This document shows, piece after piece, positions 2,594 through 31,084 of a stretch of DNA of 64,000 nt (position 1 is its first letter; every line of letters starts with the position of its first letter). The notes beneath the pieces are model-generated. The model was not told the DNA's origin and ran no database searches. It saw only the letters and a program-made list of their open reading frames with translations. This DNA is from Sporocytophaga sp. (lineage in GTDB: Bacteria > Bacteroidota > Bacteroidia > Cytophagales > Cytophagaceae): assembly GCA_024707265.1 (NCBI GenBank), contig JANQAB010000001.1:193501-257500 (forward strand). The letters run 5' to 3'. The position numbers and the translations under genes are program-made.

Positions 2594-5212
2594 TTACCTT
2601 TTCACAAACTTCATTACTTGATTCAAAATTCTTAAAAAGTATATTCCGGAGGGCAATTCTGAAACATCAACCGTTTTACCTTTCCCTGAAGTTAAAGTAT
2701 GTCCTGTCATATTGGTTATCAGCCATTCAGGGTCTTCGGCATTAATATCAATCATCAACAAATTACCTGCGGGATTGGGAAACAGCTTTACTGAAGCAGC
2801 TTTATAACCTGACAAAATTTGTGAAGCCAATGAATCCTTGCAATCATCAGACTTTGCAACTACTATGGTTTTCCCTAACACATCTGAAGCTATTGAACAT
2901 CCGTTATTGGTAACATTTACTGAATAAACTCCAGGCTCAGAAACAGCGATAGAATCATTGCTGCTATTTTCAACCGCAACGCCATCTTTGAACCATTCAT
3001 ACGTGTTACCTTCCACATGATCTGCAAAAAGCAGGGCCTTCTCAGGACTGCAGAAAACTACCTCTTCTGCAGGGTGAAGATTTATCTCTGGTACTGCGCA
3101 AGCGGAAATATTAATTGTTATTTCACCTCCATCCGGAACGGCATTAAACACAAACTCGCCTGATAGTATTTTAAAATTTAGCTTTTTACCATTCTGGTAA
3201 ATACTTAAAACATTTGCAACAACAGAAGGTTTCTTCACTTTAATTGTCAGAGGCTGAAAATACAAGCTGTCAGGAAGCTTGTCGGACAAATTCAGTTTCC
3301 ATGTATTTCCATTTTTAAATGGAGCTGACGTCTCCGTAAGTGTAGCAGTCTTTTTCTCTCTATGATATTGAATTGCCTGGGCAAAAGTACATATCCAGAC
3401 ATCGTTCTTTCTTGACAACAAAGTATCCAGTTGTTTGGCCAAATCATTCTGATGTATCTGGGCATAAGAATTATCATTGATGGTATTGCTATAAATACTA
3501 TGATATAAATAAGTAAGCAATCCCCCGCCTTTAATAATACTTTCGATTTGTGAATTAAACTGAGCAATAGAAACCTTGTTATCCATTCCATAGGTAAGAA
3601 TCTTATAATAATCATCCTCTGAAGGAGCAAAATTATAAGTATAATTTCCTGATGAAGACTGTACCCCTCTGGAAGCAATGTGATTGCTGTTCTTCACAGA
3701 ATCAATCACCGCCTGGTCATAAGTTCCGAAAGGATAAGCGAATGTCAGCACTTTTCCTCCGGTTAACTTTTCTGCAAAGTAACTCCTTGCATCTCTGATT
3801 TCAGCCTTCTTCTGATCTCCCGATAATGTTGTTAGATCCGGATGGGATTTGGTATGGTTGGCAATTTCATTTCCATCAGCATGGGCATTTCTTATCTGAG
3901 ACCAGTCAGGAGTACCTAAAGCATTGGTTATAAAAAAAGTCGCATTGACACTTCTTTTCTTCAACTCAGGAATCACTATAGCAGGATGCCCGGGAGACCA
4001 GTCATCAAATGTTAAGGATATTGCTGCTTTCTTATTGTCCAGCCAGTTGGATATGGAATAATTCAGATCGGCTTCTGATGAAGCGCATTGTATATTCAGT
4101 GAATTGATAAAAGCAGTAAGTCCTGAAGCCATACTTATGTGAGTAGCAGTACTAGGATGCCAGTCTTCTCCATACGGTTCATTCTGAGGACTCATTTCAT
4201 AATAATATACATGCTGATATTGTGATGATTTAAGTGTATTGACAACATTTTTAACATATGTTCTGATCCTTGTCCACTGCTGGGCGCCGACAGGATATCC
4301 ATCTGACATCATAACTCCTGCTGAAAGAATGATTACTGCATCAGGATGATATCCTTTTAATCTTTTAACGAAGTTCACATAAGTTGATTCGAAAGTCTCC
4401 TGATTCACAGGATTTGCAGGATCCGGGAAAAAGTCATTTGTTCCTAGGTTAATGACTATATAGTTTGGATGATGAGATGCGTGATTCCAAACCGGAGAGG
4501 ATGCATTATCAGGAAAAATGCGGTCATAGATACCAGGCAGAGTGCCTGTAGTGGAGGCATTATTATTTCTGTAAATACCTCTTCCGCTATAGCATACTGC
4601 CCTGTATTTCATCCCAAGGTTTCTAGCTGTAATATATCCCCAGGCGTTATAGTTATTTTCATTGGCAGAATGAAAACCCGTAGTTGGGTTCCCGCTAGCT
4701 AGGATGTTCACTTCATTTCCATAACCACATGTAATGGAATTTCCAATGAATTCAATTTCGCAGGAAGGTTCACTTAGCGGTAGCAGCGTAGCACCACCAT
4801 CCAGAACAAATCCCTGAAAAGCTGACTTTCCCACAGCAGCTTCTGTAAGCTTTATAAGTTCCACAGTATGAGAACCAGCGCTTAAACCTGTAGCAATTGA
4901 ATATGTATTACTGCCTGCCAGTACTTCAAATTTCTGAGGAGTACCACCATCAATTATTCTATAAAAATAATTGGTGGTGGTGGCACCATGAGCCCCATAA
5001 TCCTGAAATTTAGCTTTGATGGAAGTCCCGGTAAATTTTGCACGGATCGTCACTCCGGAAAACTCAAAAGCCGGAGCTTTTGAGTTTGTAAAATCAACCC
5101 TTCCCCAATAGTTGATATCAGGATGATCAGCATCGATTGTCACCTGGGCTTGTAATGATGAAAAAGAAATTAAAATACAGCAATACGCTATTGTTGACAG
5201 AATTATTTTCAT
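2594..5212 (-). CDS. Bifunctional CE2 acetyl esterase - CE4 polysaccharide deacetylase, T9SS-secreted
   Basis: This 872-residue secreted enzyme carries two deacetylating modules. A signal peptide (1-22) is followed by a CE2-type N-terminal jelly roll (~25-145) and an SGNH hydrolase domain (~150-375) with GNSIT (Ser159), NLGTND (~255-260) and the Asp-x-His pair DWHPS (Asp350/His352). A NodB/CE4 domain (~392-625) follows with TFDD (401-404) and the metal-binding HTKSH (His453, His457). The last ~200 residues hold a beta-rich linker, an Ig-like module and a type A T9SS sorting domain (LFPNPAGN... to the Lys-Arg end). Both module types are known on xylan or chitin oligomers; here acetylxylan is the likely target because the gene follows a GH9 cellulase gene by only 19 bp, presumably in one transcript. 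The fusion lets one polypeptide remove acetyl groups by two mechanisms (serine esterase and metal-dependent). Confidence 0.88.
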   Translation of the reverse strand: MKIILSTIAYCCILISFSSLQAQVTIDADHPDINYWGRVDFTNSKAPAFEFSGVTIRAKFTGTSIKAKFQDYGAHGATTTNYFYRIIDGGTPQKFEVLAGSNTYSIATGLSAGSHTVELIKLTEAAVGKSAFQGFVLDGGATLLPLSEPSCEIEFIGNSITCGYGNEVNILASGNPTTGFHSANENNYNAWGYITARNLGMKYRAVCYSGRGIYRNNNASTTGTLPGIYDRIFPDNASSPVWNHASHHPNYIVINLGTNDFFPDPANPVNQETFESTYVNFVKRLKGYHPDAVIILSAGVMMSDGYPVGAQQWTRIRTYVKNVVNTLKSSQYQHVYYYEMSPQNEPYGEDWHPSTATHISMASGLTAFINSLNIQCASSEADLNYSISNWLDNKKAAISLTFDDWSPGHPAIVIPELKKRSVNATFFITNALGTPDWSQIRNAHADGNEIANHTKSHPDLTTLSGDQKKAEIRDARSYFAEKLTGGKVLTFAYPFGTYDQAVIDSVKNSNHIASRGVQSSSGNYTYNFAPSEDDYYKILTYGMDNKVSIAQFNSQIESIIKGGGLLTYLYHSIYSNTINDNSYAQIHQNDLAKQLDTLLSRKNDVWICTFAQAIQYHREKKTATLTETSAPFKNGNTWKLNLSDKLPDSLYFQPLTIKVKKPSVVANVLSIYQNGKKLNFKILSGEFVFNAVPDGGEITINISACAVPEINLHPAEEVVFCSPEKALLFADHVEGNTYEWFKDGVAVENSSNDSIAVSEPGVYSVNVTNNGCSIASDVLGKTIVVAKSDDCKDSLASQILSGYKAASVKLFPNPAGNLLMIDINAEDPEWLITNMTGHTLTSGKGKTVDVSELPSGIYFLRILNQVMKFVKR

Positions 5213-5231: not shown

Positions 5232-7409
5232 TTAAAGTTTTATCATAGGTTTAACCATCACCTGCTCTCCACCTGTCACTTTAATCAGATAGGACCCTGC
5301 AGGCAGGTCATGAAGCTGAAGCTCCTGTGAGCCATTATCCATATTGAATGTTTTCATTACAGATCCTCTGATATCCATTACTGATACATGATACTTGCCT
5401 GGTTTCATGTTGGCTATCCAGAAAGAACCATTTGTAGGATTAGGGAAAAGATCAAACGAAAATGCATTTCTTCCGGAAGCACTTTCAACACTGGTTGTTT
5501 CACCCAAATCCACAAACTTTGAAAGCAAACGAATATAGCTTATTTGATAACCATTGCTGTTTTCTGTCACTGACCATGAATTCACAGGCCAGTTGGAATT
5601 AAAGTCTTTATATGATTTTTGTTTAGGTTGTCCAAAAGGAGGAGAAACAGATTCTGCAGTACACAAAGCGTTATTTTGCGAACTACCACAACTACCACTG
5701 GCGCAGCATCCATCCAGCTCATAGCCAGGATTGGCGCCCCCCACAAGAAACCCAGGAGCCGGGCCGTATGTAGAAGTTCCTACTCTGTCCCACTTAGCAC
5801 TCTTATCTGTAAACCAGCTGTGATAAAATTCATTGACACTATTCTCAGCACCATAGTTGTTCATATTGGAAAGGTATACCAGACTAAGGGGATTCACACC
5901 ATGAATGTAATGGACGTAGCCCAGAGCAGCTTCTCTTGCAGTTGTGTTCTTAGTAGCGTCAACATTATAACTTATCACATTGTGGAACATTGTTCCCTGC
6001 ATTGATTTTATATTATTGCTTCCCCAGGTATAGTCCTTAAGATGCGCACGATAAGGATCTTTTTTGGAAGTGATTGCTTTAAAATTATCATCATTATTGG
6101 CCATTGCTGATTTATAGGTATTGATAATTTTCGTTTTACTTGCAGCTGTTGCACCCGAAAGAGACGCATAATATAGTAACACATCCTGCAATTCACTTTC
6201 AAAAGGATAAGCAAAGCTCCATTGTAAAAGATGTGCATTTTGATAGTTATTGTCTACATAGGTTTTGTACACTGTTTCGCCTGTAGCATCAAACAAAAAT
6301 ATGGCAGCTTTTAATCTTCCCATAGGAAGGTCATAATCACTTCCCTGCTCTTGCTGACCTGCACCTATGCCGGAAGATCCATTTGCTGCATCATTGTTTC
6401 GCCACATTACCGCTGGATTTGCAGCAGACCATTCCCAGGCCATTTTTGCTCTCTTAAGCAATGTATCTGCATAAGCAGTCATATTAAGGGAACGATATAC
6501 TTTGGAAGCTATCGCAAAAGCACCAGCTGCACTTTGGGCAGAAGAGGTATTGATGCCGCCATAGTAAGTTGTACCTGTTGCACTTGAAGGTGGACTTGCA
6601 TGGGCAAGCGAGGCAATACTTATAACCGAACCGTCGGCTTGTTGCATGCGAAGCAAATGATCAATTCCCCATTTTGCTTCATCCAATAAATCAGGAATTC
6701 CATTTCCCGATTCCGGCAAATTGTAATTATCCGCCCATGCATCCGGTTTTTCAAGATAAGCCAGCATCATCTGTACTACGTAACTGGAAGTCCAATTTGT
6801 ATATTTATTATAGTCACCCGCATCATACCAACCACCGGATACATCTTTTTCTTTTGCAGCATTGTTTCTATCGTTATAAGCCCTTGCTTTCTTGTCCTGC
6901 ATGTGGCTTGCTCCATCTGCCCAGCCTTCACCTGCATAAGCTGCCTGTTTTGCAAACCCAGCTCGCTGATAGAAGAATGCCCGAACTGCATGTTTGAGCA
7001 CATCATTATAAATCCCACCGCTAATCTGAAAAGTATAGGAACGGACATTATTATTAACATCCAGGATGTAATATTCACCCGGGACGTTTACTGAGGTAAA
7101 GTCAAACCACCAGGCTTTGTCACCTGATGAGTTGTCTTCAGCCCCGCCGGACCAAACCTGCAAAGGACCAGAATATACCTGTTCTCCTGCAACATTAACA
7201 ACTGCATACAAAGTCCCCGGAATGAAAGCTTCTGAGGCATCAAAACCCGTCACCGGATCCCGGACAACAGCTATTTTAACTTCATCAGGAAGATATCCGA
7301 ACTGGTCTATCACAATATACTTTGAAACAGATTGGCCGGACACATCCCTCAATCCCGTTAGGAGAAATAAGCAAAGTGATAGAAATAGAGTAGAGTAAAA
7401 TTTAACCAT
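5232..7409 (-). CDS. GH9 cellulase (endoglucanase) with CelD_N domain, T9SS-secreted
   Basis: A 725-residue secreted glycoside hydrolase family 9 enzyme. After the signal peptide (1-26) come an Ig-like CelD_N domain (~30-130) and the (alpha/alpha)6 catalytic domain (~133-630). Diagnostic residues are present: GGWYDAGDY (Asp196, Asp199, the base region), the substrate-binding FYHSW (~528-532) and the proton donor Glu616 in SWSVTEN. A Cys-rich insert (CCASGSCG, ~568-575) lies near the end of the catalytic domain. The C-terminus is a type A T9SS sorting domain (LFPNPTNGS...). Inverting hydrolysis of beta-1,4-glucan is the family activity; endo versus processive action cannot be read from sequence. 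It is the first gene of a two-gene unit with the CE2-CE4 esterase. All catalytic residues appear intact. Confidence 0.92.
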   Translation of the reverse strand: MVKFYSTLFLSLCLFLLTGLRDVSGQSVSKYIVIDQFGYLPDEVKIAVVRDPVTGFDASEAFIPGTLYAVVNVAGEQVYSGPLQVWSGGAEDNSSGDKAWWFDFTSVNVPGEYYILDVNNNVRSYTFQISGGIYNDVLKHAVRAFFYQRAGFAKQAAYAGEGWADGASHMQDKKARAYNDRNNAAKEKDVSGGWYDAGDYNKYTNWTSSYVVQMMLAYLEKPDAWADNYNLPESGNGIPDLLDEAKWGIDHLLRMQQADGSVISIASLAHASPPSSATGTTYYGGINTSSAQSAAGAFAIASKVYRSLNMTAYADTLLKRAKMAWEWSAANPAVMWRNNDAANGSSGIGAGQQEQGSDYDLPMGRLKAAIFLFDATGETVYKTYVDNNYQNAHLLQWSFAYPFESELQDVLLYYASLSGATAASKTKIINTYKSAMANNDDNFKAITSKKDPYRAHLKDYTWGSNNIKSMQGTMFHNVISYNVDATKNTTAREAALGYVHYIHGVNPLSLVYLSNMNNYGAENSVNEFYHSWFTDKSAKWDRVGTSTYGPAPGFLVGGANPGYELDGCCASGSCGSSQNNALCTAESVSPPFGQPKQKSYKDFNSNWPVNSWSVTENSNGYQISYIRLLSKFVDLGETTSVESASGRNAFSFDLFPNPTNGSFWIANMKPGKYHVSVMDIRGSVMKTFNMDNGSQELQLHDLPAGSYLIKVTGGEQVMVKPMIKL

Positions 7410-7798
7410 ATTTTATTTAGCTTTTTTTGTTACTACTATAAAAAGGATCAATAAGTAATCACTTGAGTCAAAAAAGAATACAAAATTTCCTTAATAAATC
7501 ACAATCCAATAACTATTCGTACGCAGCAACTTCAATTCGGATGAAAGATTCCAAGATTTTATTCTGGGAATAAAAATCAACGTAAGAAGCAATCTCAATC
7601 CTAAATATCAGGCGTCCGCAATAGAACATTATCCCGAAAATATAGAATCAAAACAAGAAATAAAGATTATTCAACTAGGAATGTGACTTAAATAAACTAC
7701 TGGGATAGGGCTGTTAAGTTATTTTAGGTAGTTACTTATCAAACAAAACAAACTGAATTTCAATAGAATTAAAAAAATAAATTATTACTAATAGATAT
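7410..7798 (-). promoter_or_regulatory. 389-bp upstream region of the GH9 operon
   Basis: No ORF of note. It should hold the promoter of the GH9/CE2-CE4 operon and the end of the upstream 7TM gene transcript. I found no convincing TTG/TAnnTTTG pair and no clear terminator. The sequence is A/T-rich without obvious repeats. Confidence 0.3.
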
Positions 7799-9688
7799 TT
7801 AGTTCTCAAAAATCAGATCTTCCCAGCTTTTAATTTTAATACCTTCCTTTTTGCGGGATTCTAGAGCATCTTCCAGTTTCATTTTAAACTTGAGACAGGT
7901 TTTGTAATTAAGATCTATTTCACGGGCCAAGTCACTGACATTGAGATTTTCTTTCCACATAAAAACAGCGTAAGCAATATAAAAAGCTTTATCCAATGGA
8001 AATTTCAGCTTGTGAAAGATCGTTTGCGCTGTGATAGATTCTATCGTTCCACATTTGGAACAACGGCGTGAGTAGAAGTCATTTAGCTTAGCCTCTTTAC
8101 TGTTACCGCACTTTTTGCAGCTGAATCCGTCCACCCATTTAAATTCACTAAGAAAATTATAACACTCTGTTTCAGAAGGAAACAATTCCCTCATCTGGAA
8201 AAATGTCAGATTTTCTGGCATCACCTTTCTGATTTTGAGTGACTTTATAGTTTTGTTGAGGTTCCAGTTTTCCTTGTCAAGGTTGATATTCCATTGCCGG
8301 ATCATCTCTGCCTGCTCTTCCAACCTCCGGTTAGACTCCTCCAGCTGGCGGGTTCTCATCGCAACTTTTTCCTCCAATTCTCTATTTACTTTGTTAAGAA
8401 GCAGCTCATTTTCCTCCATTTGACTTATCACTTTCTGCCGCGCTTCATTTTCGGAAATCAAAGCCCTTTCCTTTTCCAGCCTTTCCTGTCTGAGTCTTGA
8501 GCTTAAGGCAAAAGAGAACATAAATGTATCTATCCCTATCCCGTAAAAAAGACTATAATAGACAAAGTGATTGCCTCGGATCCATCCATTGTAGTAGAAG
8601 TAGGTTACAGCAAAGCCGATAAAGATTGAGATGAAACCTATTAAGAAAATCCTGACGGGTTTGTACCCTTGCTTTAATCTTTTAACAGCTACATACAAAA
8701 GCATGGATAATATACTGAAGATAAAAATTTCAGAGATGGCCAATGCAAATGGCATACCCGGATAAACATAATAAACTATGGATTGCATTACAGCAAACAA
8801 AACAAAGGTGCACCATATGCCAAAATGAATTCTAGGAAATAACTTCTTTATTGAAAGAAAATACGACACATAGTGGATTATCCCAAAGACGAAAATTACA
8901 CGAACATATTCATCCAAAAAATAATTGACCGCGGGATAGTCAGGTGCAAGTATTGCAAATCCCATCTGATCAACTTTCAGACATTCAAGAGCAGATACAA
9001 GTACAAATAGTATATAGTATAAATAAATTCTATCTTGCGTTGAAAGGAAAAACAGGAAATTGTAAAGTACAAGAATAAACAGTACCAGATAAAATCCTCC
9101 TATTATAAAATAATACCGGTTAGAATAATTAATGTAATGCTGATAAGGCAACAATTGAGCTGAAAGCCCAAGATAACTGCTAGACCTGTATTTTATAAAA
9201 ATGGTATTATTTCCTTTTTTTAAAGGTATTTGAAAGGCAGGAAAACGATGATGAAGATTTCTCTCATAAAAGGGTATTTCCAATCCAATGGTATCAATGG
9301 CTACAAACCCACTCTTCTCCTTTTCGACAAACAAAATAATTTCAGCTGCCCGGTGATTGAACATTTCAAAAATCCACTTTTCATCAAGCCCTTCATTAGC
9401 TGTGAAGTTGAGCTTTAGCCACAGTGATTGATGAATGTTATCATTAAAATTTTTATAGTTAAAGTCAAACTTAGAATCTGGCAACTTTGACACCTCTTCA
9501 ACAGATATTTCCGCATTCGGACCAAACAGTATAAGGAAGTTACTCAGATTGAATGCATATTCGCGATTTTCGGATATTAATTTGTTGGCAGCGCCAGCCA
9601 GTCCACTTTCAGCAACTGTAAACAGATTGATGAAAAAAAACAATAGTATAAACCTTTTCCCTATGAGGTTGATTACTAACCTGGACAT
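7799..9688 (-). CDS. 7TM-DISM receptor fused to coiled coil and IS1595-type zinc-ribbon/HTH
   Basis: A 629-residue membrane protein with an unusual output end. Signal peptide (1-~33), a periplasmic 7TMR-DISMED2-like beta-sandwich (~40-185), seven predicted transmembrane helices (~192-397), a Glu/Arg-rich coiled coil (~398-485), then a C-terminal DNA-binding-like region. In that last part residues ~502-610 match the N-terminal zinc ribbon of IS1595/ISXO2 transposases: LFPSETECYNFL, then CKKC (Cys524, Cys527) and CSKC (Cys543, Cys546), the S-x-T-A-x-T-I-F block, and a helix-turn-helix (NVSDLAREIDLNYKT). No transposase catalytic domain follows. DISMED2 domains are thought to bind carbohydrates. 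The inferred role is a one-component membrane transcription factor sensing a glycan. It sits between the GH9/CE2-CE4 operon and the PL1 gene, all on one strand, which makes those genes possible targets. Confidence 0.85.
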   Translation of the reverse strand: MSRLVINLIGKRFILLFFFINLFTVAESGLAGAANKLISENREYAFNLSNFLILFGPNAEISVEEVSKLPDSKFDFNYKNFNDNIHQSLWLKLNFTANEGLDEKWIFEMFNHRAAEIILFVEKEKSGFVAIDTIGLEIPFYERNLHHRFPAFQIPLKKGNNTIFIKYRSSSYLGLSAQLLPYQHYINYSNRYYFIIGGFYLVLFILVLYNFLFFLSTQDRIYLYYILFVLVSALECLKVDQMGFAILAPDYPAVNYFLDEYVRVIFVFGIIHYVSYFLSIKKLFPRIHFGIWCTFVLFAVMQSIVYYVYPGMPFALAISEIFIFSILSMLLYVAVKRLKQGYKPVRIFLIGFISIFIGFAVTYFYYNGWIRGNHFVYYSLFYGIGIDTFMFSFALSSRLRQERLEKERALISENEARQKVISQMEENELLLNKVNRELEEKVAMRTRQLEESNRRLEEQAEMIRQWNINLDKENWNLNKTIKSLKIRKVMPENLTFFQMRELFPSETECYNFLSEFKWVDGFSCKKCGNSKEAKLNDFYSRRCSKCGTIESITAQTIFHKLKFPLDKAFYIAYAVFMWKENLNVSDLAREIDLNYKTCLKFKMKLEDALESRKKEGIKIKSWEDLIFEN

Positions 9689-10046: not shown

Positions 10047-10081
10047 AATAAAAAGAGACTGACCCAAACGGAGTCAGTCTC
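10047..10081 (-). terminator. Rho-independent terminator of the PL1 gene
   Basis: On the minus strand a 9-bp perfect stem GAGACTGAC / GTCAGTCTC (10055-10063 with 10073-10081) is followed by TTTTTATT. It lies 31 bases past the stop codon of the pectate lyase gene. Confidence 0.88.
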
Positions 10082-10112: not shown

Positions 10113-13100
10113 TTAATACTTTACAAACTTGTATACTTTGTTCTGTATTTTAGCAAAGTATACACCAGGGCTTAATTCATTTCCAAATTCTATTTCAGAT
10201 ACATCTTTGAAGGTTTCAAAAATTTTACCTTCTGCATTAGTGATTTCAATATTTGCAGATGCATTCAATCTGATATTAAAGTTGTCTGCACTTGGATTTG
10301 GATAAATTGACACTTCAGGAATATTAATCTGATTATCCATACCAGTAATAACACAATCTCCTTTACCCAAGCCAGCACTTACATATCCTATCTGATCTAT
10401 ATTAGCCAATCCCTCTGCCGTTGCAGATGAAAGCTTTACTATATTAATTCCGGCATTGAGGTTAATATTTACCTCTACTGTTTTATAAATTGTAAATGCA
10501 CCGGTAGCAGGGAAACTAAGCTGACCGATTAAAGATGTGCCATTAACGTTGACCAATGCTTTGCGATCAGCGGTACCACCACATGCATACCTAAAGCTTA
10601 ACGTTTTCAAACCTGCGGCATCTGAGCTCACATGAAAAGTGATTTGTGAACCGATTGTATTTGGTACATTAATAAACCCTGGCCCTTTAAAACCCAGGTT
10701 ATTGTTATCAATGGTGCCATCATAAGAACAAGCATCAATTTCTGCTTCTCCAGCTGAAGTACAAGCAGCTTTGCCTGTAGTTCCACCAACACAGCGATCA
10801 CAGTCATCAATAGTTGCAGTTCCGTTCATTGTTTTATTACAATCACATGGGTTGATGGTCACGTTGACATTTGATGCGGTAGAAGAAACTACAGCATTAC
10901 TGATAGCAATAACTTTCAGAGTTTTTGAACCTGTGGAAGATGGGAACCACAATATTGAATAAGGACTTGTTGCATCAGAACCAATAAGAGTAAAACCTTC
11001 ATAAAAATCAACCTTAGATATGGTTCCGCTTGAAACTGATGCAGTAGCTGTTATTGTCACAGTGTCTGACTGGCAATAGCTTCTTCCAGAGAATGGCCCT
11101 GTCAATGCTACAGTTGGTGTAGGGGTAGAGCAAGTTCCATCAACATACACCCCAACCTTTCTTGTCATCATAGCTCCTGCTTTATCTTTTACAGTCAGGT
11201 TAAAAGAAGCGAAGCCACAAGTTGTTGGTTTAAAGGTTGCCGTAGCTCCAGAAATGGTGACTGTTCCATTTACTACAGACGAGACCGAGTAGGCCGGACT
11301 TGTCTTGGAATAGCCCATAAACATGCTTGTCAGGTTGATAGTCTGTGTAGCAGTATTTGAAATAATGTAGTGGTACTCAGCCATCCAGCTGAGATAGTCT
11401 TCCAGATTCGTATAACCGTCTTTATCAGGATCAGCATTGGATTCACTGAAATCTCCTTTAGCAGAATTAGGATTGAAACCCTTACCTTTCTCCCAGAAGT
11501 CAGGCATACCATCTCCATCAGAATCCCAATTTGAAGCTCTGGATGTTGTCGGATAGCTTTCATATCCGCCAACATCGCTTTCTTTATCAGGAAAACCAGG
11601 CTTTCCAGTTACACTTCCTTTGTATTTATAAGTCCCGTTTAAAGTCTCGTCAACGATCCTTATATCATGATCATCGAAAACCGGCTGGTTATGGCCAACA
11701 TCTGACAAGACAGTTTTATAAGCCTCAATAGCACCTTGAGTAGTTACATAAGAAGGAAAGAATGGAGCATTCACATATCCTTCATACTTTTTAGAATCTC
11801 CATTTCTATAAGTTTCTCTTCTTCCTTTGGACTGACTTGATTCATCAAAATAACCAGGCATCACATTTCCAGAGAAATAACCTCTTTGCGTCCCCGAACC
11901 CGTATTTTCATGGTCGATAGATAAGGCTACAAAAATTTTACTTCCTGCTCCAGGCTTATAATAGTTATTGACGAAGTTGACTTCCATCGCACCACCGTCT
12001 GTAGTACGTCCTCCCCAATTGTAGACTACATTGTTGGTAATATCCAGTCTTCTGGCATAATAACCATTTCCATCAAGACCACCACCCAAACTCCAGTTTC
12101 GGCCATAATTATGTGCCAGTAGATTATGGTGAAAACTTCCAACATCACCCCCGATAGTAGCAGCGTATCCATGTTCGGTTCCGGAGGGATAATTCTGATG
12201 GTTTGCGGCATTCAAAGCTTCTGAAATCAAGGTGCGCTGTAAAGTAATGTTTTTACCACCACGTGAGCTGAAAGATTCATCTATAGTCCAGCTTATTGAA
12301 CAATGATCAAGAATACTGTGATTTGCTCCTGTTAAGCCGATACCATCATAGGTTGGTCCTGCCCCAAGTCTAACCTTCATAAACCTGCCAATGACATCAT
12401 TTCCTGTAAAACCAAAAGGAGCTTTTCTGATACAGATACCTTTACCTGGCGCGGTTTGACCTGCAACAGTTACATATGGGTCACTCAGGACCAGCCTGGA
12501 TTCCAGAGCAATCATCCCTCCGACATCAAATACGATGGTTCTCGGCCCTTTCTCAACCTCTACGGCATATCTTAAACTTCCAGGGTTCTTGTCATCTTTG
12601 AGATTGGTAACATGGACCACTTTACCACCTCTGCCTCCTATTGCAAAACGGCCATATCCTTCAGCACCAGGAAACGCCAGTTGTCGTGGACGAAACACCC
12701 AAACATTACCTTTGGTCACAACACCTGAGCTACTCACTTCATCTATCCTCCAGTAATATGTATTCATACTATACAGTCCAGTGACATTATAGCTTGTGCC
12801 TGCCTGTTGACCTTTATAACAAGTTGAACTTGTAGTTCCTGTTTCAACACAAGTCTTGTCAGTACCGAAATAAACACGATGAGAGGTTGCGTTGGAACCT
12901 GCAGTCCATTTTAATATAGCAGAGCCTGTACCTCCATCAACATGGCGATCTCCATCTGAAGGTACAGGACTTTTGGCCTGATCTTTTACATTGGGAGTAT
13001 TCAGTTCAAAGCCATTGATATAAACGTTTTTCATAGACGCTGAGAAAGCTGTTTCTGCCTTATATAACAAGACTACATTCTTTCCGGCAGTTGCATTAAA

Positions 13101-13616
13101 GGTAACATAGGAACTTGCTACTGTATTGATTGATACGGCTCTGTTTGAAGGAGCCAGGTTGTTAATTGTCAATGTTCCGTTAACATAGACATCAATTGGT
13201 GCAAAGGTATTTGGTGCAGGATCAGCAAATGAATTATGATAAAGCAACATGGAATGTGTTCCTGTAGAAAGACCACTTATAGTAAGCTCAATCTCTGCTC
13301 CCGCATTTCCCCCATCCACAACGATTCCATCACATATAAGCCGGGCATAGCTTGGTGCCTGTACTCCAGCTTTATACCAATCAGCACGTAATGCAGAACC
13401 ATTAGATCCTGTCTTCTTAAAGGTAAAAGTTATTCCGCTAAAAGTCTTGGAAATGCTGACTACATTATCAGGAATCCATGCCAGATAGTTCGGATCATTG
13501 GTCTCAGCCTCACTGCGTCCACTCATGTTCAGGTCGACTTTGATGACCGGGCTTTGAGCCATTATTGAATGTAGAGAACTTAAAGCCAAAGCAATGAAGA
13601 ATAAAAGTTTTCTCAT
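10113..13616 (-). CDS. Multidomain PL1 pectate lyase, T9SS-secreted
   Basis: A 1167-residue secreted polysaccharide lyase. Order: signal peptide (1-20); a beta-sandwich, probably carbohydrate-binding or malectin-like (~24-205); fibronectin-III-like module (~210-310); PL1 right-handed beta-helix (~314-640) starting FPGAEGYGRFAIGGRGG, the usual opening of this subgroup, with the LDHCSISWTIDESF and NNVVYNWGGR strands; a calcium-binding TSP3/EF-hand-like stretch (DSDGDGMPDFWE, then DPDKDGYTN); an Ig-like cadherin-type module; a bacterial Ig module; a Cys-rich segment (CDCNKTMNGTATIDDCDRC); a CBM35/CBM6-like sandwich; and a type A T9SS sorting domain. The family cleaves pectate by beta-elimination with Ca2+. 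It appears monocistronic, with its own terminator. The catalytic Arg could not be pinned down with confidence by eye. Confidence 0.85.
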   Translation of the reverse strand: MRKLLFFIALALSSLHSIMAQSPVIKVDLNMSGRSEAETNDPNYLAWIPDNVVSISKTFSGITFTFKKTGSNGSALRADWYKAGVQAPSYARLICDGIVVDGGNAGAEIELTISGLSTGTHSMLLYHNSFADPAPNTFAPIDVYVNGTLTINNLAPSNRAVSINTVASSYVTFNATAGKNVVLLYKAETAFSASMKNVYINGFELNTPNVKDQAKSPVPSDGDRHVDGGTGSAILKWTAGSNATSHRVYFGTDKTCVETGTTSSTCYKGQQAGTSYNVTGLYSMNTYYWRIDEVSSSGVVTKGNVWVFRPRQLAFPGAEGYGRFAIGGRGGKVVHVTNLKDDKNPGSLRYAVEVEKGPRTIVFDVGGMIALESRLVLSDPYVTVAGQTAPGKGICIRKAPFGFTGNDVIGRFMKVRLGAGPTYDGIGLTGANHSILDHCSISWTIDESFSSRGGKNITLQRTLISEALNAANHQNYPSGTEHGYAATIGGDVGSFHHNLLAHNYGRNWSLGGGLDGNGYYARRLDITNNVVYNWGGRTTDGGAMEVNFVNNYYKPGAGSKIFVALSIDHENTGSGTQRGYFSGNVMPGYFDESSQSKGRRETYRNGDSKKYEGYVNAPFFPSYVTTQGAIEAYKTVLSDVGHNQPVFDDHDIRIVDETLNGTYKYKGSVTGKPGFPDKESDVGGYESYPTTSRASNWDSDGDGMPDFWEKGKGFNPNSAKGDFSESNADPDKDGYTNLEDYLSWMAEYHYIISNTATQTINLTSMFMGYSKTSPAYSVSSVVNGTVTISGATATFKPTTCGFASFNLTVKDKAGAMMTRKVGVYVDGTCSTPTPTVALTGPFSGRSYCQSDTVTITATASVSSGTISKVDFYEGFTLIGSDATSPYSILWFPSSTGSKTLKVIAISNAVVSSTASNVNVTINPCDCNKTMNGTATIDDCDRCVGGTTGKAACTSAGEAEIDACSYDGTIDNNNLGFKGPGFINVPNTIGSQITFHVSSDAAGLKTLSFRYACGGTADRKALVNVNGTSLIGQLSFPATGAFTIYKTVEVNINLNAGINIVKLSSATAEGLANIDQIGYVSAGLGKGDCVITGMDNQINIPEVSIYPNPSADNFNIRLNASANIEITNAEGKIFETFKDVSEIEFGNELSPGVYFAKIQNKVYKFVKY

Positions 13617-15105: not shown

Positions 15106-17471
15106 ATGAAATTTTGTTTTCTAGCTCTTTTAAGCATTTCTTTTTTTCTGTCCGGGGCAACTTTTGGACAAGGTGATCATTGTACAATCATAGGAAAGGT
15201 TCTGACTTCATCCGGAGAACCAATACCTTATGCAACTATTGTAACCCAGCCTTTGCAGTTAGGAACAATGTCAGACCAAAACGGTGCATTCATCATAGAA
15301 AGGGTGCCTTTGGGAAACTATAGCATTCAGGCCCGGGCTATTGGTTTTATGCCTTACACAATAACAGTGACGGTGGACGATACTGAAGCTCTTAGTGTTA
15401 ATTTTAAACTTAGTCCGGAACCACATTCACTGGATGAAGTAGTAGTAACCGGCAAAAGCGAAGCCACGAAGATTAAAGAGAGCGGATTTAATGTCAATGT
15501 TATCCAAGCAAAGAACTTCTCCAACAGAACAAGTGACCTTAATCAGGTGCTGGCCACCACTACTGGTGTTAGAATCAGAGAAGACGGAGGGCTCGGGTCC
15601 GGATTCAACTTCTCTCTTAATGGCTTTTCCGGCAATCAGGTACGCTTCTTTCTTGATGGAGTTCCAATGGATAACTTCGGGTCTTCCCTTACATTAAACA
15701 ATATTCCCATCAATCTTGCCGAGCGAATAGAAATATACAAAGGTGTAGTACCTGTATGGTTAGGCTCTGATGCATTGGGAGGCGCAATCAATATTGTTAC
15801 AGACAAAAAAGCCAGAAATTTCCTTGATGTATCATATTCGTACGGTTCATTTAATACACACCGTTCCTCTGTAAATTTTGCCATTACAGACTCTGCAACC
15901 GGCCTCACTGCTCGCGCAAATCTCTTTCAAAATTACTCAGACAACAACTATTGGGTAGATGTAGATGAAGTCATTAATAACTCTTATACGGGCAATATGA
16001 TTCGTGTCAGGAGGTTTCATGATACCTACGATTCCAAATCTGCAATTTTCGAAGTTGGTTTACTTGATAAAAAATATGCAGATCAATTATTGTTTGGGTT
16101 TATAGTATCCGGCAGCGATAAAGAAATTCAAACTGCTTCAACCATGGAAAGGGCGTATGGAGAGCGCAGACAGCTGAGTTCTACTCTGATGCCTACTATC
16201 AAATATCAAAAGAAAAACCTTTTTGTAAGGGGATTAAGTTTAAGCACCTACACTTCTTACAACTTTGGCTATGACCAAACCATCGATACAGCCACTGCCC
16301 GGACATATTCATGGAATGGTACAATAGGTTACAAGGCAAACAGAGGGGAAAACTCGTTAACCATGTATCGCTATAGTAACAATCTGATACTGGCTAGAGC
16401 TAACCTGAGTTATCTGATTTCCGAACACCATTCTCTGGTTGCAAACTATACCTTTAATAGCTTTGACCGCAAAGGCCATGATGAAACAGATCCGGATAAC
16501 ATGAGATATAAACTTCCTCAGAGGGTTAATAAATCAGTCTTAGGACTGGGCTATCGTTTTGATTGGAAAGAAAAAGTTACCTTATCGTTTTTTGCCAAAA
16601 AATATTTTCAAAATGGTGCAGCCTATTATATATCTGACAGATATGTTTCTGATTCCTGGAAAAAAATGAGTTAAACCGTGAGTACACTGGATGGGGGGTA
16701 GCTACACAATGGTCAATCATAGGAGGTTTGAAAGCAAGTTTTTCCTATGAAAATTCCTATCGTCTACCGGAGGGTTATGAGTTTTTTGGAGATGGGATGA
16801 ATTTAGAAGGTAACCCGCTTGTTGCATCTGAAAAAAGCAAAAACTTTAACCTGTCACTAAGTTATCGTTTAAATATCAAACCGGCACATAAAATTATACT
16901 GGATGCAGGATTACTGTACAGGCGTGCTAAAGATTTTATCCGGCAGGAAGTGGGAGAGTTAAACTCGAAAATCATCAACGAAGCTGCTATAGAGGTAACA
17001 GGATTTGACGCCGATATTCTTTATGAATACAAAAACTTTTTACATCTTTCTTTAAATGGAACTTGGCAAAACGTTATCAGTCTTGCAAAATTTGATAAGG
17101 ATGGTAATCGGGTTCTGTCGTATCTGACCAAAGTACCCAATATCCCTACTCTTTTTGGTAATGCAAATATTTCAGTCCAGCATAGCAAAATTATCTGTTC
17201 ACACGATCAACTATCCGTGGGCTATCGCTTTGCTTTTTTTGAAGAATATTTCCTGAAATGGGAAATATATGGAAGAAGAGATACTAAACTTAGAATTCCA
17301 AGACAGACTTCCCATGCAGCATATATTACCTATTCTCTGAAAAACGGACGCTACAATATCAGTGCTGAGTGTAACAATATTTCTGATGCACAATTGTACG
17401 ATAATTTCAGGCTTCAAAAACCTGGCAGGGCATTTTATATCAAGCTTCGATATTTCATTAGTAAACCATAA
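15106..17471 (+). CDS. TonB-dependent siderophore receptor (XusA-like), frameshifted at an A7 tract
   Basis: Outer-membrane receptor importing a ferric siderophore, powered by TonB. After the signal peptide (1-~21) come a carboxypeptidase-like regulatory domain (~25-105), a plug domain opening with LDEVVVTG, and the beta-barrel ending in a terminal aromatic-rich strand (KLRYFISKP). The frame is broken after residue 522: frame one stops at 16674. The downstream frame gives ...SDSWKK-NELNREYTGWGVATQW..., continuous with the barrel, if the seven-A run at 16660-16666 had eight A. The joined protein would be ~789 residues, normal for the family. The DUF4374 lipoprotein gene starts 21 bases later. 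This receptor/DUF4374 pair matches XusA/XusB of Bacteroides. Next door to a siderophore operon it probably imports the cell's own product, though xenosiderophore uptake is possible. Confidence 0.85.
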
Positions 17472-19142: not shown

Positions 19143-20288
19143 TTAATTATCCTTTTCAGGTTCGTCAAACATTTCTCCCAAATGTTTTTCCATTACCAGA
19201 TAAGGATCATACGTATGGGTAACATGACGGATATTGATCAGACTTGCTTTACTCATCATGCGCATCATCTGTCTTCTCTCACATTTAATCCGTTCACCAT
19301 TAACAATCTTAACTCCTGCTTCAAATGCATTTCTTCCATGAGCACATAAATGATTGTTTACAAAAATGAGATCACCAGACTCCGGAATAAATTCATTGTA
19401 GATTAACGTCTTTGCTTCCTCCCAGTATTTCATAAGGTAATCCATTGCTTCCGGTGTTTGATTTGTTTCGGGATTAAATATCTGTTCCGCTGCATCAAAA
19501 CGAATAAACGGAAATTTTTCATTACCATACAATACAGGAGTCTTTACTTCAACCTTATTACTTTCTCCCGAATGATAGTTAGCATCCTGGGGACAACGGT
19601 AAATAGAATGGAATAATGGCTTCAAAACCTCACTTGCCTCACTATGAGAGCGAATAGAATAGAGTGTAGACGGAACCAATTCTTCATTTCTAAGGTACAT
19701 AAAACTCAAAAAATCTGCTGGGTTGAACAGAAATGCATCTTCAGTATGCACATATAGATCTGTTCTTGAGCCTGAACCTGTCTGAGTAAAATTCATGTTT
19801 TCATCAGGAATAATCGGATGCATCAACCCTCCTCCTTTCCGCTGAGAATAATACTGAACTGGCTTGGAAGGAACTGCTCCATGAAGCAAGGTAGAAATAA
19901 AACCATAAATACAGAGTTTATTGTAATCAGCGTCCTGCCATCGTGCAGGTGTGCGCCCTAAAACTAGTTGGTCAACTTGAACCAAACCTTTAAAAATGAT
20001 TGCCCCATATTGTGTTGCGGAGAAATCCGTACCAAACCTGCTTAATATCCTGATAATCCTTTCAGGAAGAAACTGATATGCATAAATATGAAGATTACTT
20101 ATATACTCAGGATCTTCATAAGTCTTATAAGCTTTGCAAAGAATTTCGGCAACCTGACTGATTGCTCTTCTCTCCTCTTCTGTTACCTCAATTATTTCAG
20201 GCTTCAGAGAAACTAAGGCTTTATGGGGTAAAGTTGACCGGCTGTTTTCCATATCCAAAACAGGAGGTTCATTATAGATTATATTCAT
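19143..20288 (-). CDS. Fe(II)/2-oxoglutarate oxygenase, clavaminate synthase/AsnO-like (siderophore tailoring)
   Basis: 381 residues, soluble. It has the facial-triad pattern of the clavaminate-synthase-like group (AsnO, VioC): His181-x-Glu183 in YVHTEDAF, the distal His317 in CAHGR, and an Arg-rich 2-oxoglutarate site ~20 residues further (CERRQMMR, ~336-343). HxE instead of HxD is typical of this amino-acid-hydroxylating clade. Members beta-hydroxylate free or carrier-bound Asn, Arg or similar residues. It is third in a unit with a carrier protein and an adenylating enzyme, ahead of a terminator, inside the siderophore locus. Inference: it hydroxylates a carrier-bound amino acid, for example creating a beta-hydroxy-carboxylate iron ligand. 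The true substrate is unknown. Confidence 0.78.
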   Translation of the reverse strand: MNIIYNEPPVLDMENSRSTLPHKALVSLKPEIIEVTEEERRAISQVAEILCKAYKTYEDPEYISNLHIYAYQFLPERIIRILSRFGTDFSATQYGAIIFKGLVQVDQLVLGRTPARWQDADYNKLCIYGFISTLLHGAVPSKPVQYYSQRKGGGLMHPIIPDENMNFTQTGSGSRTDLYVHTEDAFLFNPADFLSFMYLRNEELVPSTLYSIRSHSEASEVLKPLFHSIYRCPQDANYHSGESNKVEVKTPVLYGNEKFPFIRFDAAEQIFNPETNQTPEAMDYLMKYWEEAKTLIYNEFIPESGDLIFVNNHLCAHGRNAFEAGVKIVNGERIKCERRQMMRMMSKASLINIRHVTHTYDPYLVMEKHLGEMFDEPEKDN

Positions 20289-20332
20289 AGCTTATGAATA
20301 ATAAGTTGGAGGATAAATTATAGTAAAATATT

Positions 20333-21715
20333 TCAAACCAAGATTGATTCAATTGCCCTGTAATCATTTTTCCCATTTGCAGTCAAAGGTATTGAGTCTA
20401 CATAGCTCACACGAATAGTTCTGGGATGCAAGTGCAATCTGTGAGACAAAAGCTGGGTAATACACTCTTCCGAAACCTGAGGTTCACTATGAACTATATA
20501 CAGGAATTTATCTCCCACACCATGACAAGCAACAGATATATTTCCTAGTTCTCTTTTCAAGAACCCTTCAATTTCGTCCAGGTTAATTCTATGCCCTGAA
20601 AGTTTTATGAATCTTTTCAACCGGCCTGTGATATAATAATATCCCTCTTCATCACAGCGGCCAATATCACCTGTACGCAATAAACTATTGGTATCAAATG
20701 TCTTCAAATCTTCAGGACAAGAAGCATAACCTCCAAAAACGTTTGGCCCTTCATACAATAGTTCATTTGTATCAGGATCCAGACTCAAGGAACCACCTTT
20801 TATAGCATTTCCTACAGATCCCGTCTTTCTTAGTATATCATCAGGGTGTAAATAGGCTATTCTTGCTGCAGCTTCAGTTTGCCCGTACATAACATAAAAC
20901 TTCACGCCATACTGTTCTGCATATAGTCCGAAATTTCTTATAAGCCCATCACTAAGCTTTCCTCCTGCCTGGGTCAGATAGCGAAGAGAAGGATAATTTC
21001 TTGAACAGAATCCTATCCGGTTTAAGATCTCATAATTAAAAGGAACTCCTGCCAACGAAGTGCAACTGTAGTATTCAAAGTCATTCCAGAAATCCTTTTG
21101 CAGTATATCTTTCTCCATACATAATATACAACCTCCCCCAATGGAATTACTTGTAAACACCGACAAACCATAAGAATAGAACAATGGCAGATTTAAAGGA
21201 ACAACATCATCATCCTGAATAGGCAGGTAGTCAACAATTGACAATGCATTTGAAAGAAGGTTCTTTTCGGAAAGCTTTACAAATTTCGGAGATCCCGTGG
21301 AACCTGATGTACTCAGAAGATATTTCAAATTATGATGTATCTCATAATTCACCGGATTTAAACTAATATGAAGATTAATTCTTTCTCCATACTCAGATAC
21401 CTTATAACCGGAGATACCGTTCCTGGATATGTCATAAATATACCCCGGAGAATATATATTTTCCAGTTGAACCTTGAGATATTCAGCAATTCCGAGACTT
21501 AACAATACAATTACATGATCTGAACGAAGGAAATTCAGCAACACTTCCACTGAGCGTATTGTGTTGTTCAGATAGAGAAAGGCAAGGCTTTTAACTCCTT
21601 GTAGATTCAATGAATCATGAAAATCATCTGCCTTGTATAACTTACCGGTTGCTCCGTCTATATACCGAAGGTTCGTATTTTCAAGTATAAGATTATATAA
21701 ATTCTGATTCCCCAT
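20333..21715 (-). CDS. AMP-forming adenylation enzyme (stand-alone, acts with the adjacent ACP)
   Basis: 460 residues of the ANL superfamily. Visible core motifs: phosphate loop STSGSTGSPK (135-144), YVMYGQTEAAARIAY (A5), RTGDIGRCDEEGYYYITGR (A7/A8), and the catalytic Lys in LTANGKNDYR (A10) near the C-terminus. It is slightly shorter than a typical acyl-CoA synthetase and resembles stand-alone D-alanine/amino-acid-activating or acyl-ACP ligases. Its gene is 23 bases behind the carrier protein gene and 44 bases before the oxygenase gene. The likely job is to activate an amino or carboxylic acid as its adenylate and load it on the carrier protein. The substrate cannot be read by eye. Confidence 0.82.
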   Translation of the reverse strand: MGNQNLYNLILENTNLRYIDGATGKLYKADDFHDSLNLQGVKSLAFLYLNNTIRSVEVLLNFLRSDHVIVLLSLGIAEYLKVQLENIYSPGYIYDISRNGISGYKVSEYGERINLHISLNPVNYEIHHNLKYLLSTSGSTGSPKFVKLSEKNLLSNALSIVDYLPIQDDDVVPLNLPLFYSYGLSVFTSNSIGGGCILCMEKDILQKDFWNDFEYYSCTSLAGVPFNYEILNRIGFCSRNYPSLRYLTQAGGKLSDGLIRNFGLYAEQYGVKFYVMYGQTEAAARIAYLHPDDILRKTGSVGNAIKGGSLSLDPDTNELLYEGPNVFGGYASCPEDLKTFDTNSLLRTGDIGRCDEEGYYYITGRLKRFIKLSGHRINLDEIEGFLKRELGNISVACHGVGDKFLYIVHSEPQVSEECITQLLSHRLHLHPRTIRVSYVDSIPLTANGKNDYRAIESILV

Positions 21716-21738
21716 AGTATTTATCCGATCATAAAAAA

Positions 21739-21984
21739 TTAGTTCTTTAAATCTATATTATATTTGGCCAGCATCTTCTTTGCATCAGCATAACTTGTAA
21801 GAGCAAGGACATCATTCGTATCGATGTTGATATCAAACGTACATTCTATTTCTTCTATCAAAGTCAGATGACCGAGAGAATCCCATTCAGGTATACTCTG
21901 ATAAGAAAGGTCTTCCGTGACACTTCGTCCAGGAATCGCAAGTGCTCTTGAAAACGCTGACTGTAGTTTTTCTTCCGTATCCAT
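21739..21984 (-). CDS. Acyl/peptidyl carrier protein
   Basis: 81 residues with the four-helix carrier fold pattern. The 4'-phosphopantetheine attachment serine is Ser36 in EWDSLGHLTL, where Trp-Asp-Ser-Leu-Gly matches the ACP/PCP consensus. It is the first gene of the three-gene unit, and a strong promoter (22035-22065) lies about 50 bases upstream of its ATG. It is too small and acidic for a full NRPS module, so it should serve as a stand-alone carrier for the neighbouring adenylating enzyme and oxygenase. The phosphopantetheinyl transferase must be elsewhere. Confidence 0.88.
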   Translation of the reverse strand: MDTEEKLQSAFSRALAIPGRSVTEDLSYQSIPEWDSLGHLTLIEEIECTFDINIDTNDVLALTSYADAKKMLAKYNIDLKN

Positions 21985-22034
21985 ATCTATAAATTGTTTG
22001 CTTGATTTAGATTATTAAGTTTCTTTAATTGTTA

Positions 22035-22065
22035 CAAAACTAGTCTGGACAATCTCAGTAGACAA
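22035..22065 (-). promoter_or_regulatory. Promoter of the ACP/AMP/oxygenase unit
   Basis: On the minus strand TTG (22063-22065) and TAGTTTTG (22035-22042) are exactly 20 bases apart, a full match to the Bacteroidota -33/-7 consensus TTG-N19-21-TAnnTTTG. The same TAGTTTTG with the same N20 spacing occurs before the NIS operon (32968-32998). Confidence 0.8.
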
Positions 22066-22077
22066 TCACCATGAGGT

Positions 22078-22128
22078 GGTAAAAGAAGGGTATATATGAA
22101 GGGTAACAACAATACCTTTATGATGGTA
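22078..22128 (-). promoter_or_regulatory. Array of GGTA boxes (operator) upstream of the ACP promoter
   Basis: On the plus strand GGTA begins at 22078, 22089, 22102 and 22125, with an inverted TACC at 22113. The nearest box starts 13 bases from the -33 element. Offsets 0, 11, 24, 35 (inverted) and 47 match those before the NIS operon (0, 11, 24, 34 inverted, 46). Spacing near one or two helical turns suggests several protomers of a regulator binding one face of the DNA. The regulator is not known. Confidence 0.65.
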
Positions 22129-22275
22129 GTAGTATAAGCCCGCTAAAAATGTTTAGAAGATATATTATTGTATAGAGGCCAATAATATATTATGCCTCCT
22201 TTTTGATTTGAAGCTATGTAGGTACTGTAGATGTAAATTCTTTGATTATGGTCTTACTGCAATAATGCTCATAGA

Positions 22276-22941
22276 TCAAGCCTGTGCAACTATTCCGGAT
22301 TGAATGGCATAATTACATAATTCAACCGCAGAATGTAACTGCAGCTTCTTCATTATATTTTTCCTATGGGTATGTACCGTATGAGGACTTATATTTAATG
22401 TATCCCCAATCTCTTTATTGGTCTTACCGATACTGATCTGTTTGACAATCTCCTTCTCTCTTATTGTAAGAGCAGTTGCAGTGAAGTCAATATTGCTCTC
22501 TACTCTATGCCTGTCTGCAATGATTACATCTACAATAAAAGGGCAAAAAAACTTCTCTCCCTGAATGGTCGAAGTAACGGCCTTTAATATATCTCTTTTC
22601 CCGCAATCCTTCATAAGATAACAATAAACATTCAGATCAAGTGATTTTATTATATCACCTTTTTTATCAAGCCCCGCAAATACAATGACTCTGCAATCGT
22701 TCAAAACAGAAAGTATTCTCTTAATTTCATTCAACTCAAAAAATTGAGAGTTATAATCAATGATCAATATGTCCGGACGAAACTGTAATGCGGTATAATC
22801 GAATTCATCGGTGTTACCTACTTCCTCTATCAGAAATCCTGACTCTCCATCCCCTTCAAGAATCTTTTTGATTCCTTCTCTGAAAACTGGTTGCGCATCA
22901 GCAATTATTATTTTCGTTTTACTTTTAACTACCATTTCCAT
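22276..22941 (-). CDS. NarL/LuxR-type response regulator
   Basis: An orphan response regulator with no histidine kinase beside it. REC domain (~1-115 from the chosen start): acidic site IIIADAQPVFREG, phosphoacceptor Asp in DILIIDYNSQ, and Lys in YLMKDCGK, so it appears competent. C-terminal LuxR HTH: LTIREKEIVKQISIGKTNKE...SPHTVHTHRKNIMKKL. The longest frame opens with TTG at 22968, but a -7-like element TAGCTTTG overlaps that point, so ATG 22941 or 22935 is the better start. It lies between the two siderophore biosynthetic units and is read in the same direction. It is therefore one candidate reader of the shared GGTA operators; this is inference only. Confidence 0.82.
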   Translation of the reverse strand: MEMVVKSKTKIIIADAQPVFREGIKKILEGDGESGFLIEEVGNTDEFDYTALQFRPDILIIDYNSQFFELNEIKRILSVLNDCRVIVFAGLDKKGDIIKSLDLNVYCYLMKDCGKRDILKAVTSTIQGEKFFCPFIVDVIIADRHRVESNIDFTATALTIREKEIVKQISIGKTNKEIGDTLNISPHTVHTHRKNIMKKLQLHSAVELCNYAIQSGIVAQA

Positions 22942-23652
22942 AAGTATAATGATTTGGTCAATTAACAAAGCTATTTTGCTTGCTATATCAGAGAGAAAGT
23001 CCGATCAACATTTGAATTTCAACTCCCAGGAAAACCCATCTTCAATTAGACTTTTAATGTATTTTCATCAAAAACCAGGTTGAATAGCAGAAAAATATCG
23101 GTGAAATTATACCCTGTTTAGAATAATTCCAAATAACTTTATGCTAGTATTAAAAAATACCCTCATGAGGTTATGTACCATTGCTCACTATAAAACTCCT
23201 GTATTGCATCGTTTGACATAAAGAATAAAAAAAGAAATCATTTACCTGAACTTTGAATTTCAAACCTTTGGAAAAGGCTTGTATTCGTTGTGGTATGATG
23301 TCAACTTTTAAGTTAAAGACTGGTAGGCGTTAACCATAACATTTTGCCGACTATGGAAAGTAATACTAAGAGCAGGCCTTAACTATTGTATAAGAGAAGC
23401 TATCTGGATGAATTATAGTCTCCAATGAATTAACAGGATCAAAAACTTTTCCAACAGTTGATGTTAGAAATTTCAGATAATTTTAAACAGGCTTATGAGA
23501 TCAAATAGAATGCTTACCCTGTTTGAAAAATAAAATGAACCGGAGAGATATACAAGTTAAATTTTACAGCTATAGATAGAATGATTACAAGTATCAATAA
23601 AGTTTTGAGAGGATCTTAAAACTATTATTCCTAACCCATAACATGAAACAAT
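22942..23652. other. 711-bp gene-free region between exporter and response regulator
   Basis: No supportable ORF. It contains TACC motifs at 23110, 23158 and 23176 and a 10-bp palindrome CCTCATGAGG (23161-23170). It lacks the regular spacing seen at the two siderophore promoters. A -7-like TAGCTTTG (minus strand, near 22968-22975) may serve the response regulator gene. No terminator was found after the MATE gene. Confidence 0.35.
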
Positions 23653-25050: not shown

Positions 25051-25105
25051 GGTTATTGAGTAGTATAAGACAAAAGTTTATGTAGAAATATTCTGATAAT
25101 TACAT

Positions 25106-30417: not shown

Positions 30418-30445
30418 AATCTCTGTTGTAAGTTGTTTGAAAAAA

Positions 30446-31084
30446 TCAGTTTAGCCAGGTGGTCTTTTGTTCTATAGGTGTTCTCTTCTTCTCAATGTCG
30501 TAAGCTCCAGCATCATAATGACCAATAAAGAACAGTCCTAATGACTGCTCATTCTCCAGCAAGCCTAACGACTTGACAAATTCAATAGCCGGACCATTCG
30601 TTGCCCAGTATGAACCAAGATCATAAGCAGTACAGGTCAAAGCCATATTCTGAACTGCACAAGAGACTGCTGCAACTTCTTCCCATTCAGGAATGGTTAC
30701 ACTTGCACTGCGATTCAGGATAATGGCTATGATGCAGGAAGCAGGTAAAGGATAATTCCGAAGGTACCTCAGCTTTTCAGCAAGAGCTACCTGATTGGGT
30801 GCAGTTTTACTGTATATAGGCAAATAATAGTCAGCCATAAACTTTCCATAATTGATAAGTTGTTTGCCCTGAAGCACAACAAATCTCCATGGTTCCGTCA
30901 TTTTATGCGTTGGAGCCCAGCTGGCATTAGTCAGGATCTCCAGAATCAGATCTTCAGAAATCGACTTCTTCAGATAGTCATCAGCATATATGCTTCTGCG
31001 ACTACGGATAATTTCTGATATCATGTTTCCCCTCAATAAGTCAGAGTTTGTTGATAGAACTGAAATCGTATCGTATGAATTCAT
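30446..31084 (-). CDS. Nitroreductase-family FMN oxidoreductase
   Basis: 212 residues with the nitroreductase fold pattern: IIRSRRSIY near residue 26 (FMN phosphate), NASWAPTHKMTEPWRFVVLQG, and a C-terminal GLFFIGHYD. It lies 12 bases after the first synthetase gene and 28 bases before the decarboxylase gene, inside the NIS operon. This is not one of the standard partners in aerobactin, rhizobactin or desferrioxamine operons. Possible roles are reduction of over-oxidised (nitro/nitroso) intermediates, of an unsaturated acyl group, or of ferric siderophore. The N-terminal ~20 residues precede the usual family start; Met21 is an alternative. Confidence 0.8.
   Translation of the reverse strand: MNSYDTISVLSTNSDLLRGNMISEIIRSRRSIYADDYLKKSISEDLILEILTNASWAPTHKMTEPWRFVVLQGKQLINYGKFMADYYLPIYSKTAPNQVALAEKLRYLRNYPLPASCIIAIILNRSASVTIPEWEEVAAVSCAVQNMALTCTAYDLGSYWATNGPAIEFVKSLGLLENEQSLGLFFIGHYDAGAYDIEKKRTPIEQKTTWLN

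Follow-up and report, generated by a model that had tools for sequence, protein, structure and literature searches.

A 7TMR-DISM receptor carrying an IS1595 transposase-type zinc-ribbon/HTH head, a probable membrane-tethered regulator of adjacent saccharide loci in Cytophagales

The window analyzed here, a stretch of 64,000 nucleotides from Sporocytophaga sp., carries on its minus strand an intact open reading frame of 629 amino acids (positions 7799 to 9688) that encodes a 7TMR-DISM receptor ending in a zinc ribbon and a helix-turn-helix (HTH) region. A terminator-like hairpin (10055 to 10081, minus strand; 11 pairs and a T tail) lies between the upstream gene and the receptor gene, and a gap of 389 bp (7410 to 7798, minus strand), by its position the putative target promoter region, separates the receptor from the next gene. 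The latter (5232 to 7409, minus strand) encodes a GH9 cellulase-like enzyme with a sorting tail (Pfam GH9, 8.3e-52) and is followed, at +2, by the gene of a protein joining CE2 to a CE4-like polysaccharide deacetylase (2594 to 5212, minus strand; Pfam CE2_N, 6.3e-28; Polysacc_deac_1, 1.3e-23). An earlier note on this DNA, which left the strand of the receptor gene unstated, had placed it between GH9/CE2-CE4 and PL1 genes; Pfam bears out the GH9 and CE2/CE4 labels, but does not recover PL1 (10113 to 13616), where only CBM, Ig-like and sorting-tail domains are matched and the PL1 label comes from reading the sequence alone.

The order of modules in the receptor, all of them on the minus strand, agrees between Pfam and a confident AlphaFold model (mean pLDDT of 84.9) and is the one that the earlier note had read: a DISMED2-like domain, seven helices, a coiled coil and a ribbon with HTH. 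The modelled protein opens with a hydrophobic helix (residues 2 to 29; 9602 to 9685), inferred to be a signal peptide or anchor, and continues into a periplasmic 7TMR-DISMED2 sensor domain (residues 55 to 179; 9152 to 9526; PF07696, 1.6e-14), the beta-rich model of which resembles the periplasmic domain of RetS (3jyb; E of 7.7e-5, TM of 0.70). The 7TMR-DISM_7TM membrane domain (residues 193 to 398; 8495 to 9112; PF07695, 1e-26, 94.6 bits against a cut-off of 29) comprises seven modelled helices between residues 182 and 400, the last of which (TM7) runs unbroken into a helix ending at residue 485, within a coiled-coil linker (residues 401 to 488; 8225 to 8488). The C-terminal head consists of an IS1595-type zinc ribbon (residues 504 to 547; 8048 to 8179; Pfam Zn_ribbon_IS1595, 6.3e-7, 29.7 bits against a cut-off of 25.4) and a DNA-binding-like region of three helices (residues 565 to 581, 584 to 591 and 595 to 614; 7847 to 7996), assigned from the model and from a match to the NCBIfam IS1595 transposase model NF033547. 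That match covers the HTH part only (residues 562 to 615), is weak (4.7e-5) and falls far below the model's own cut-off, while the DISMED2, 7TM and zinc-ribbon matches, including the zinc-ribbon family whose recovery had been proposed as a check, all exceed their curated cut-offs. The presence of the head is observed; its cytoplasmic side is only inferred, from the seven predicted helices.

No DDE catalytic domain follows the zinc ribbon and HTH, as had been claimed: the protein stops about 83 residues after the fourth Cys, where true transposases have about 220 to 250 residues, so that the zinc ribbon and HTH expected of an IS1595 member are met and the catalytic domain is not. Histidine kinase, receiver and AraC HTH domains gave no Pfam match in the receptor at E values up to 10. 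The four cysteines, Cys524, Cys527, Cys543 and Cys546, lie where the earlier note had put them and do not vary in alignments of 47 and of 62 relatives.

This architecture is not unique. Five full-architecture paralogs occur in the same genome, the other four being 28 to 34% identical to the window copy, and true IS1595 transposases co-occur with them. A second receptor/zinc-ribbon paralog (G000:C7:262658-264256) lies shortly past the right edge of the window, where it adjoins a stand-alone LytTR-like gene that is conserved in the genus. Nearly every sampled genome of the same GTDB family carries several fusion copies, up to about a dozen, and a scan of 84,980 species genomes, from which the best 80 loci were examined, yielded the same fusion in 80/80, with the four Cys kept and no DDE domain; by label these loci belong to Cytophagaceae, Cyclobacteriaceae, Fulvivirga and kin, other Cytophagales and Pedobacter, and a few bear other MAG labels. 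The survey suggested earlier thus finds a large, conserved family. In an even sample of 395 genomes of the phylum, the fusion was confined to a few families of the class; the remaining strong 7TMR-DISM matches that were inspected have a kinase or cyclase domain at their C-terminal end. HTH outputs on other 7TMR-DISM genes of 500 to 570 aa in the phylum were considered and rejected, since those inspected finish with the sequence of a kinase or cyclase. The fusion is not a product of chance, of a frameshift or of misassembly: same-architecture relatives, at 25 to 34% identity, are spread across Cytophagales, and strong purifying selection acts on orthologs of the genome's receptor paralogs (dN/dS of the head between genus orthologs of 0.006 to 0.056 where computable).

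The same head is also found on other sensors, namely on propeller receptors of the Reg_prop/Y_Y_Y type, about 1000 aa long and with an HTCS-type sensor (L207 to L209), and on short proteins whose membrane part is limited to one or two helices (L210, L211 and L246); since it has moved among sensors, it behaves as an output domain. Two of the short proteins (L210 and L211; 238 aa) consist of one membrane helix, a coiled coil and the head, without a sensor domain.

The claimed transposase origin of the head is backed by a tree of 87 zinc-ribbon/HTH domains, built on a short alignment of 137 columns, in which one branch (SH-aLRT of 98) splits 19 IS1595 transposases from all receptor-linked heads. 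When rooted on distant transposases, the receptor heads nest within the transposases, with the propeller and short forms placed among the 7TM fusions and with weak support for branching inside the receptor-head clade; a single capture from an IS1595-type transposase is the simplest reading of these sequences. Residues conserved at 70% or more in both fusions and transposases include the four Cys, an SxT..TxFH segment, KAF and TxWxFxxK. The head of the window copy is divergent, with an end branch of 1.2 and Leu599 where most relatives have a conserved Trp. Another Trp past the HTH, W622 (7820 to 7825), is invariant in the 22 fusions of one alignment (A2) and not throughout the wider set. Structure prediction gave a pLDDT of 91.6 for the head alone and a helical, DNA-binding-like fold; Foldseek returned no match to the head below an E value of 0.001, and VIA-align related its helical part to homeodomain-like, HTH and other DNA-binding folds with Z of about 6, a modelled resemblance that may reflect merely a common arrangement.

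Between TM7 and the head, Arg445 and Thr446 (8351 to 8356, minus strand) are invariant in all 47 aligned sequences, usually as ERT and in the window copy as M-R-T. The coiled coil with the RT of ERT bears the hallmark of the signaling helix, for which a role as a dimeric switch between sensors and outputs, occasionally HTH domains, has been proposed (PMC1592074).

The gene neighborhoods of relatives point to saccharide use. A SusC-like TonB receptor gene stands at +1 on the same strand in 46 of the best 80 loci, or in about 45 of 78 relatives with a downstream gene, and a gene for a SusD-like protein stands at +2 in 43 of the best 80; these calls were checked by Pfam for one locus (L080), and the order recurs in two more loci (L216 and L217). 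None of 16 control genes for kinase- or cyclase-tailed 7TMR-DISM proteins has susC at +1. Several loci without susC have GH18, GH20, GH30 or GH9 at +1, and the window gene, with a GH enzyme at +1 on the same strand, resembles these. The upstream neighbor is divergent in 46/94 cases, against 188/734 background pairs (Fisher p of 8e-6). Conserved copies in the genus adjoin an RND efflux operon, a Crp-like regulator, a LytTR protein and GH3 (labels by sequence reading); because several genus paralogs have such non-CAZyme neighbors, the regulated functions may exceed saccharide use.

The gap between regulator and susC, usually 200 to 450 bp, contains a shared motif. Motif discovery on 43 gaps returned (cgttTga)AATCaATGTTTTTtTTnnGtaAAAA, in short form approximately AATCaATGTTTTTttTnnGtaAAAA and partly palindromic, with a log-likelihood of 418 against about 95 in shuffles; when SusC clusters were left out of training in turn, a site at p<0.01 was found in 30/43 gaps. 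PWM scores of 20 or more occurred in 23/43 gaps, in 0/35 regions upstream of the regulators and nowhere in 722 kb elsewhere in the same loci, and the motif mostly starts 130 to 190 bp before the susC start. A genome-wide pattern search found one perfect match each in ten distinct fusion genomes, always just downstream of the fusion gene; of four fusion-free genomes, one has the sole other perfect match. A single match per genome, beside the fusion, speaks against an element common to susC promoters and against the site of a global regulator. Some of these same sequences, however, served to train the motif, the loci are related by descent, and a simple ORF caller supplied the gene starts. The motif is absent from the two Pedobacter loci, though these are susC-linked. 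A strict 29-letter pattern with 2 mismatches, run on 148 genomes, was set aside, giving mostly chance matches and one beside a fusion; the terminal repeat of the same genome's IS1595 element (AGGATTACCCATTTA...) is unlike the candidate operator. We regard AATCaATGTTTTTttTnnGtaAAAA as a candidate operator of the receptor family, tied to the regulator by position only and without binding data.

At the window copy the motif is not significant (p of 0.18 in 7410-7798; p of 0.81), and it reaches only marginal values (p of 0.02 to 0.04) in one ortholog group of the genus, whose four copies are non-independent.

Taken together, these observations lead us to propose, with a probability of roughly three in four, that the receptor is a membrane-tethered one-component transcriptional regulator that switches an adjacent saccharide operon by means of a head derived from an IS1595 transposase. 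The DISMED2 domain and seven-helix bundle would sense a signal, probably a saccharide, the ligand and the topology being inferences; the signal would pass along the continuous, presumably dimeric TM7/coiled-coil signaling helix, which would position or free a pair of cytoplasmic zinc-ribbon/HTH heads; and the heads, as descendants of one captured N-terminal DNA-binding part of an IS1595 transposase lacking the catalytic domain, would attach to DNA close to the target promoter and turn the adjacent saccharide-degradation operon on. DNA binding and activation are likewise inferred. The predicted target in Cyclobacteriaceae, Fulvivirgaceae and other relatives is the directly downstream susC-susD operon; for the window copy it would be the downstream GH9-CE2/CE4 pair, a control deduced from gene position and from the relatives that have a GH gene at +1, without demonstration and without the PUL motif. 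The membrane-tethered transcription factor imagined in the earlier note gains indirect support from retained DNA-binding residues, fold, module swapping, SusCD/CAZyme linkage and the motif, but DNA binding itself remains to be shown.

Three other explanations of the head and the motif deserve consideration. Zinc ribbons often mediate protein contacts, and the head could be an interaction or scaffold module that docks RNA polymerase, a sigma factor or another regulator, such as the LytTR and Crp-like proteins encoded beside some genus paralogs; the weakness of the PDB fold matches of the head leaves room for this. We nevertheless consider a scaffold unlikely, since the conserved residues are common to transposases in ribbon and HTH alike, the regulator-susC gaps share a motif, and the helical part finds its closest structural counterparts among DNA-binding proteins of the homeodomain-like and HTH kinds. 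Marginally less unlikely, and still improbable in our judgment, is that the receptor is merely PUL-linked and that the motif before susC works for something else, be it a global regulator of the Crp type, a sigma factor or an RNA leader element. In its favor, nothing but position identifies the motif, which is in part a palindrome, and Bacteroides sugar regulons are reported to have a palindromic Crp-type site of 22 bp (PMC3878776); the uniqueness of the exact match beside the fusion in ten genomes and the lack of the motif in the 722 kb of other sequence speak against it. That the head is a functionless piece of transposase, which an insertion joined to the receptor and which has merely persisted, can be given hardly any credence; IS1595-type elements in the same genome would supply the material, but the heads form one clade, strictly keep their Cys and HTH residues under low dN/dS and have been reused on other sensors.

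The preferred reading, a tethered one-component regulator, is of a known kind, whereas its output domain and lineage-wide deployment appear new. PUL regulation in Bacteroidota, known mainly from gut Bacteroides, has been described in terms of three main types, the SusR-like, HTCS and ECF-sigma (with anti-sigma) systems (PMC3878776). SusR of the Bacteroides thetaiotaomicron starch PUL is likewise an inner-membrane one-component protein with a periplasmic sensor, a C-terminal DNA-binding domain and linkage to susCD (PMC3878776), and this layout recurs in the relatives with a DNA-binding-type domain, the window copy not lying beside susCD and DNA-binding data being lacking; the fusion differs in its 7TMR-DISM sensor and IS1595-type head, and the predicted SusR-like motifs are direct repeats with centers 67 or 77 bp apart, whereas the fusion motif is one short partial palindrome. 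HTCS proteins also join a periplasmic sensor and a DNA-binding output in one polypeptide, and the propeller forms carry their type of sensor, but the fusion lacks their histidine kinase, receiver and AraC HTH and has a transposase-type head instead. The same kind of sensor as in the fusion occurs in 7TMR-DISM kinase and cyclase receptors and in the one listed precedent of a 7TMR-DISM with DNA-binding output, the proteobacterial proteins with a ChiS-family DBD (PMC8092284), from which the fusion differs in its output and its Bacteroidota lineage. With IS1595-family transposases (NF033547, PF12760) it shares the zinc ribbon, the HTH and most invariant residues, but it lacks the DDE domain and is joined to a receptor. 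No description of the zinc-ribbon fusion was found in the open-access literature, outside which most subscription journals lie.

A wider proposal, which we favor with less assurance, is that the head defines a fourth, undescribed class of Bacteroidota PUL/CAZyme regulators, in which a one-time capture of the IS1595 head was spread over at least three sensor types (7TMR-DISM, Reg_prop/Y_Y_Y propeller and bare membrane anchors), each with a local operator for the adjacent locus. If these proposals hold, (i) environmental Cytophagales use a further type of PUL regulator with a specific candidate operator, (ii) a transposase DNA-binding head has become, in a clear bacterial case, the output of sensory receptors and spread across sensor architectures, and (iii) ligand and target hypotheses become available for many receptors known only by their 7TMR-DISM domain.

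Elsewhere in the window, a TonB-dependent receptor gene (15106 to 17471) is apparently split into two ORFs (522 and 247 aa); a stop or frameshift may be the cause. The region from 19143 to 32923 resembles, on ORF reading only, an NIS-type siderophore cluster, with two IucA/IucC-like synthetases, a lysine N-monooxygenase-like protein, a MATE exporter, a ligase and a decarboxylase; a PLP-decarboxylase-like gene at 28892 to 30417 lies in two overlapping ORFs in different frames and may be frameshifted. An ORF at 43924 to 45192 likewise reads as a group II intron-type reverse transcriptase/maturase.
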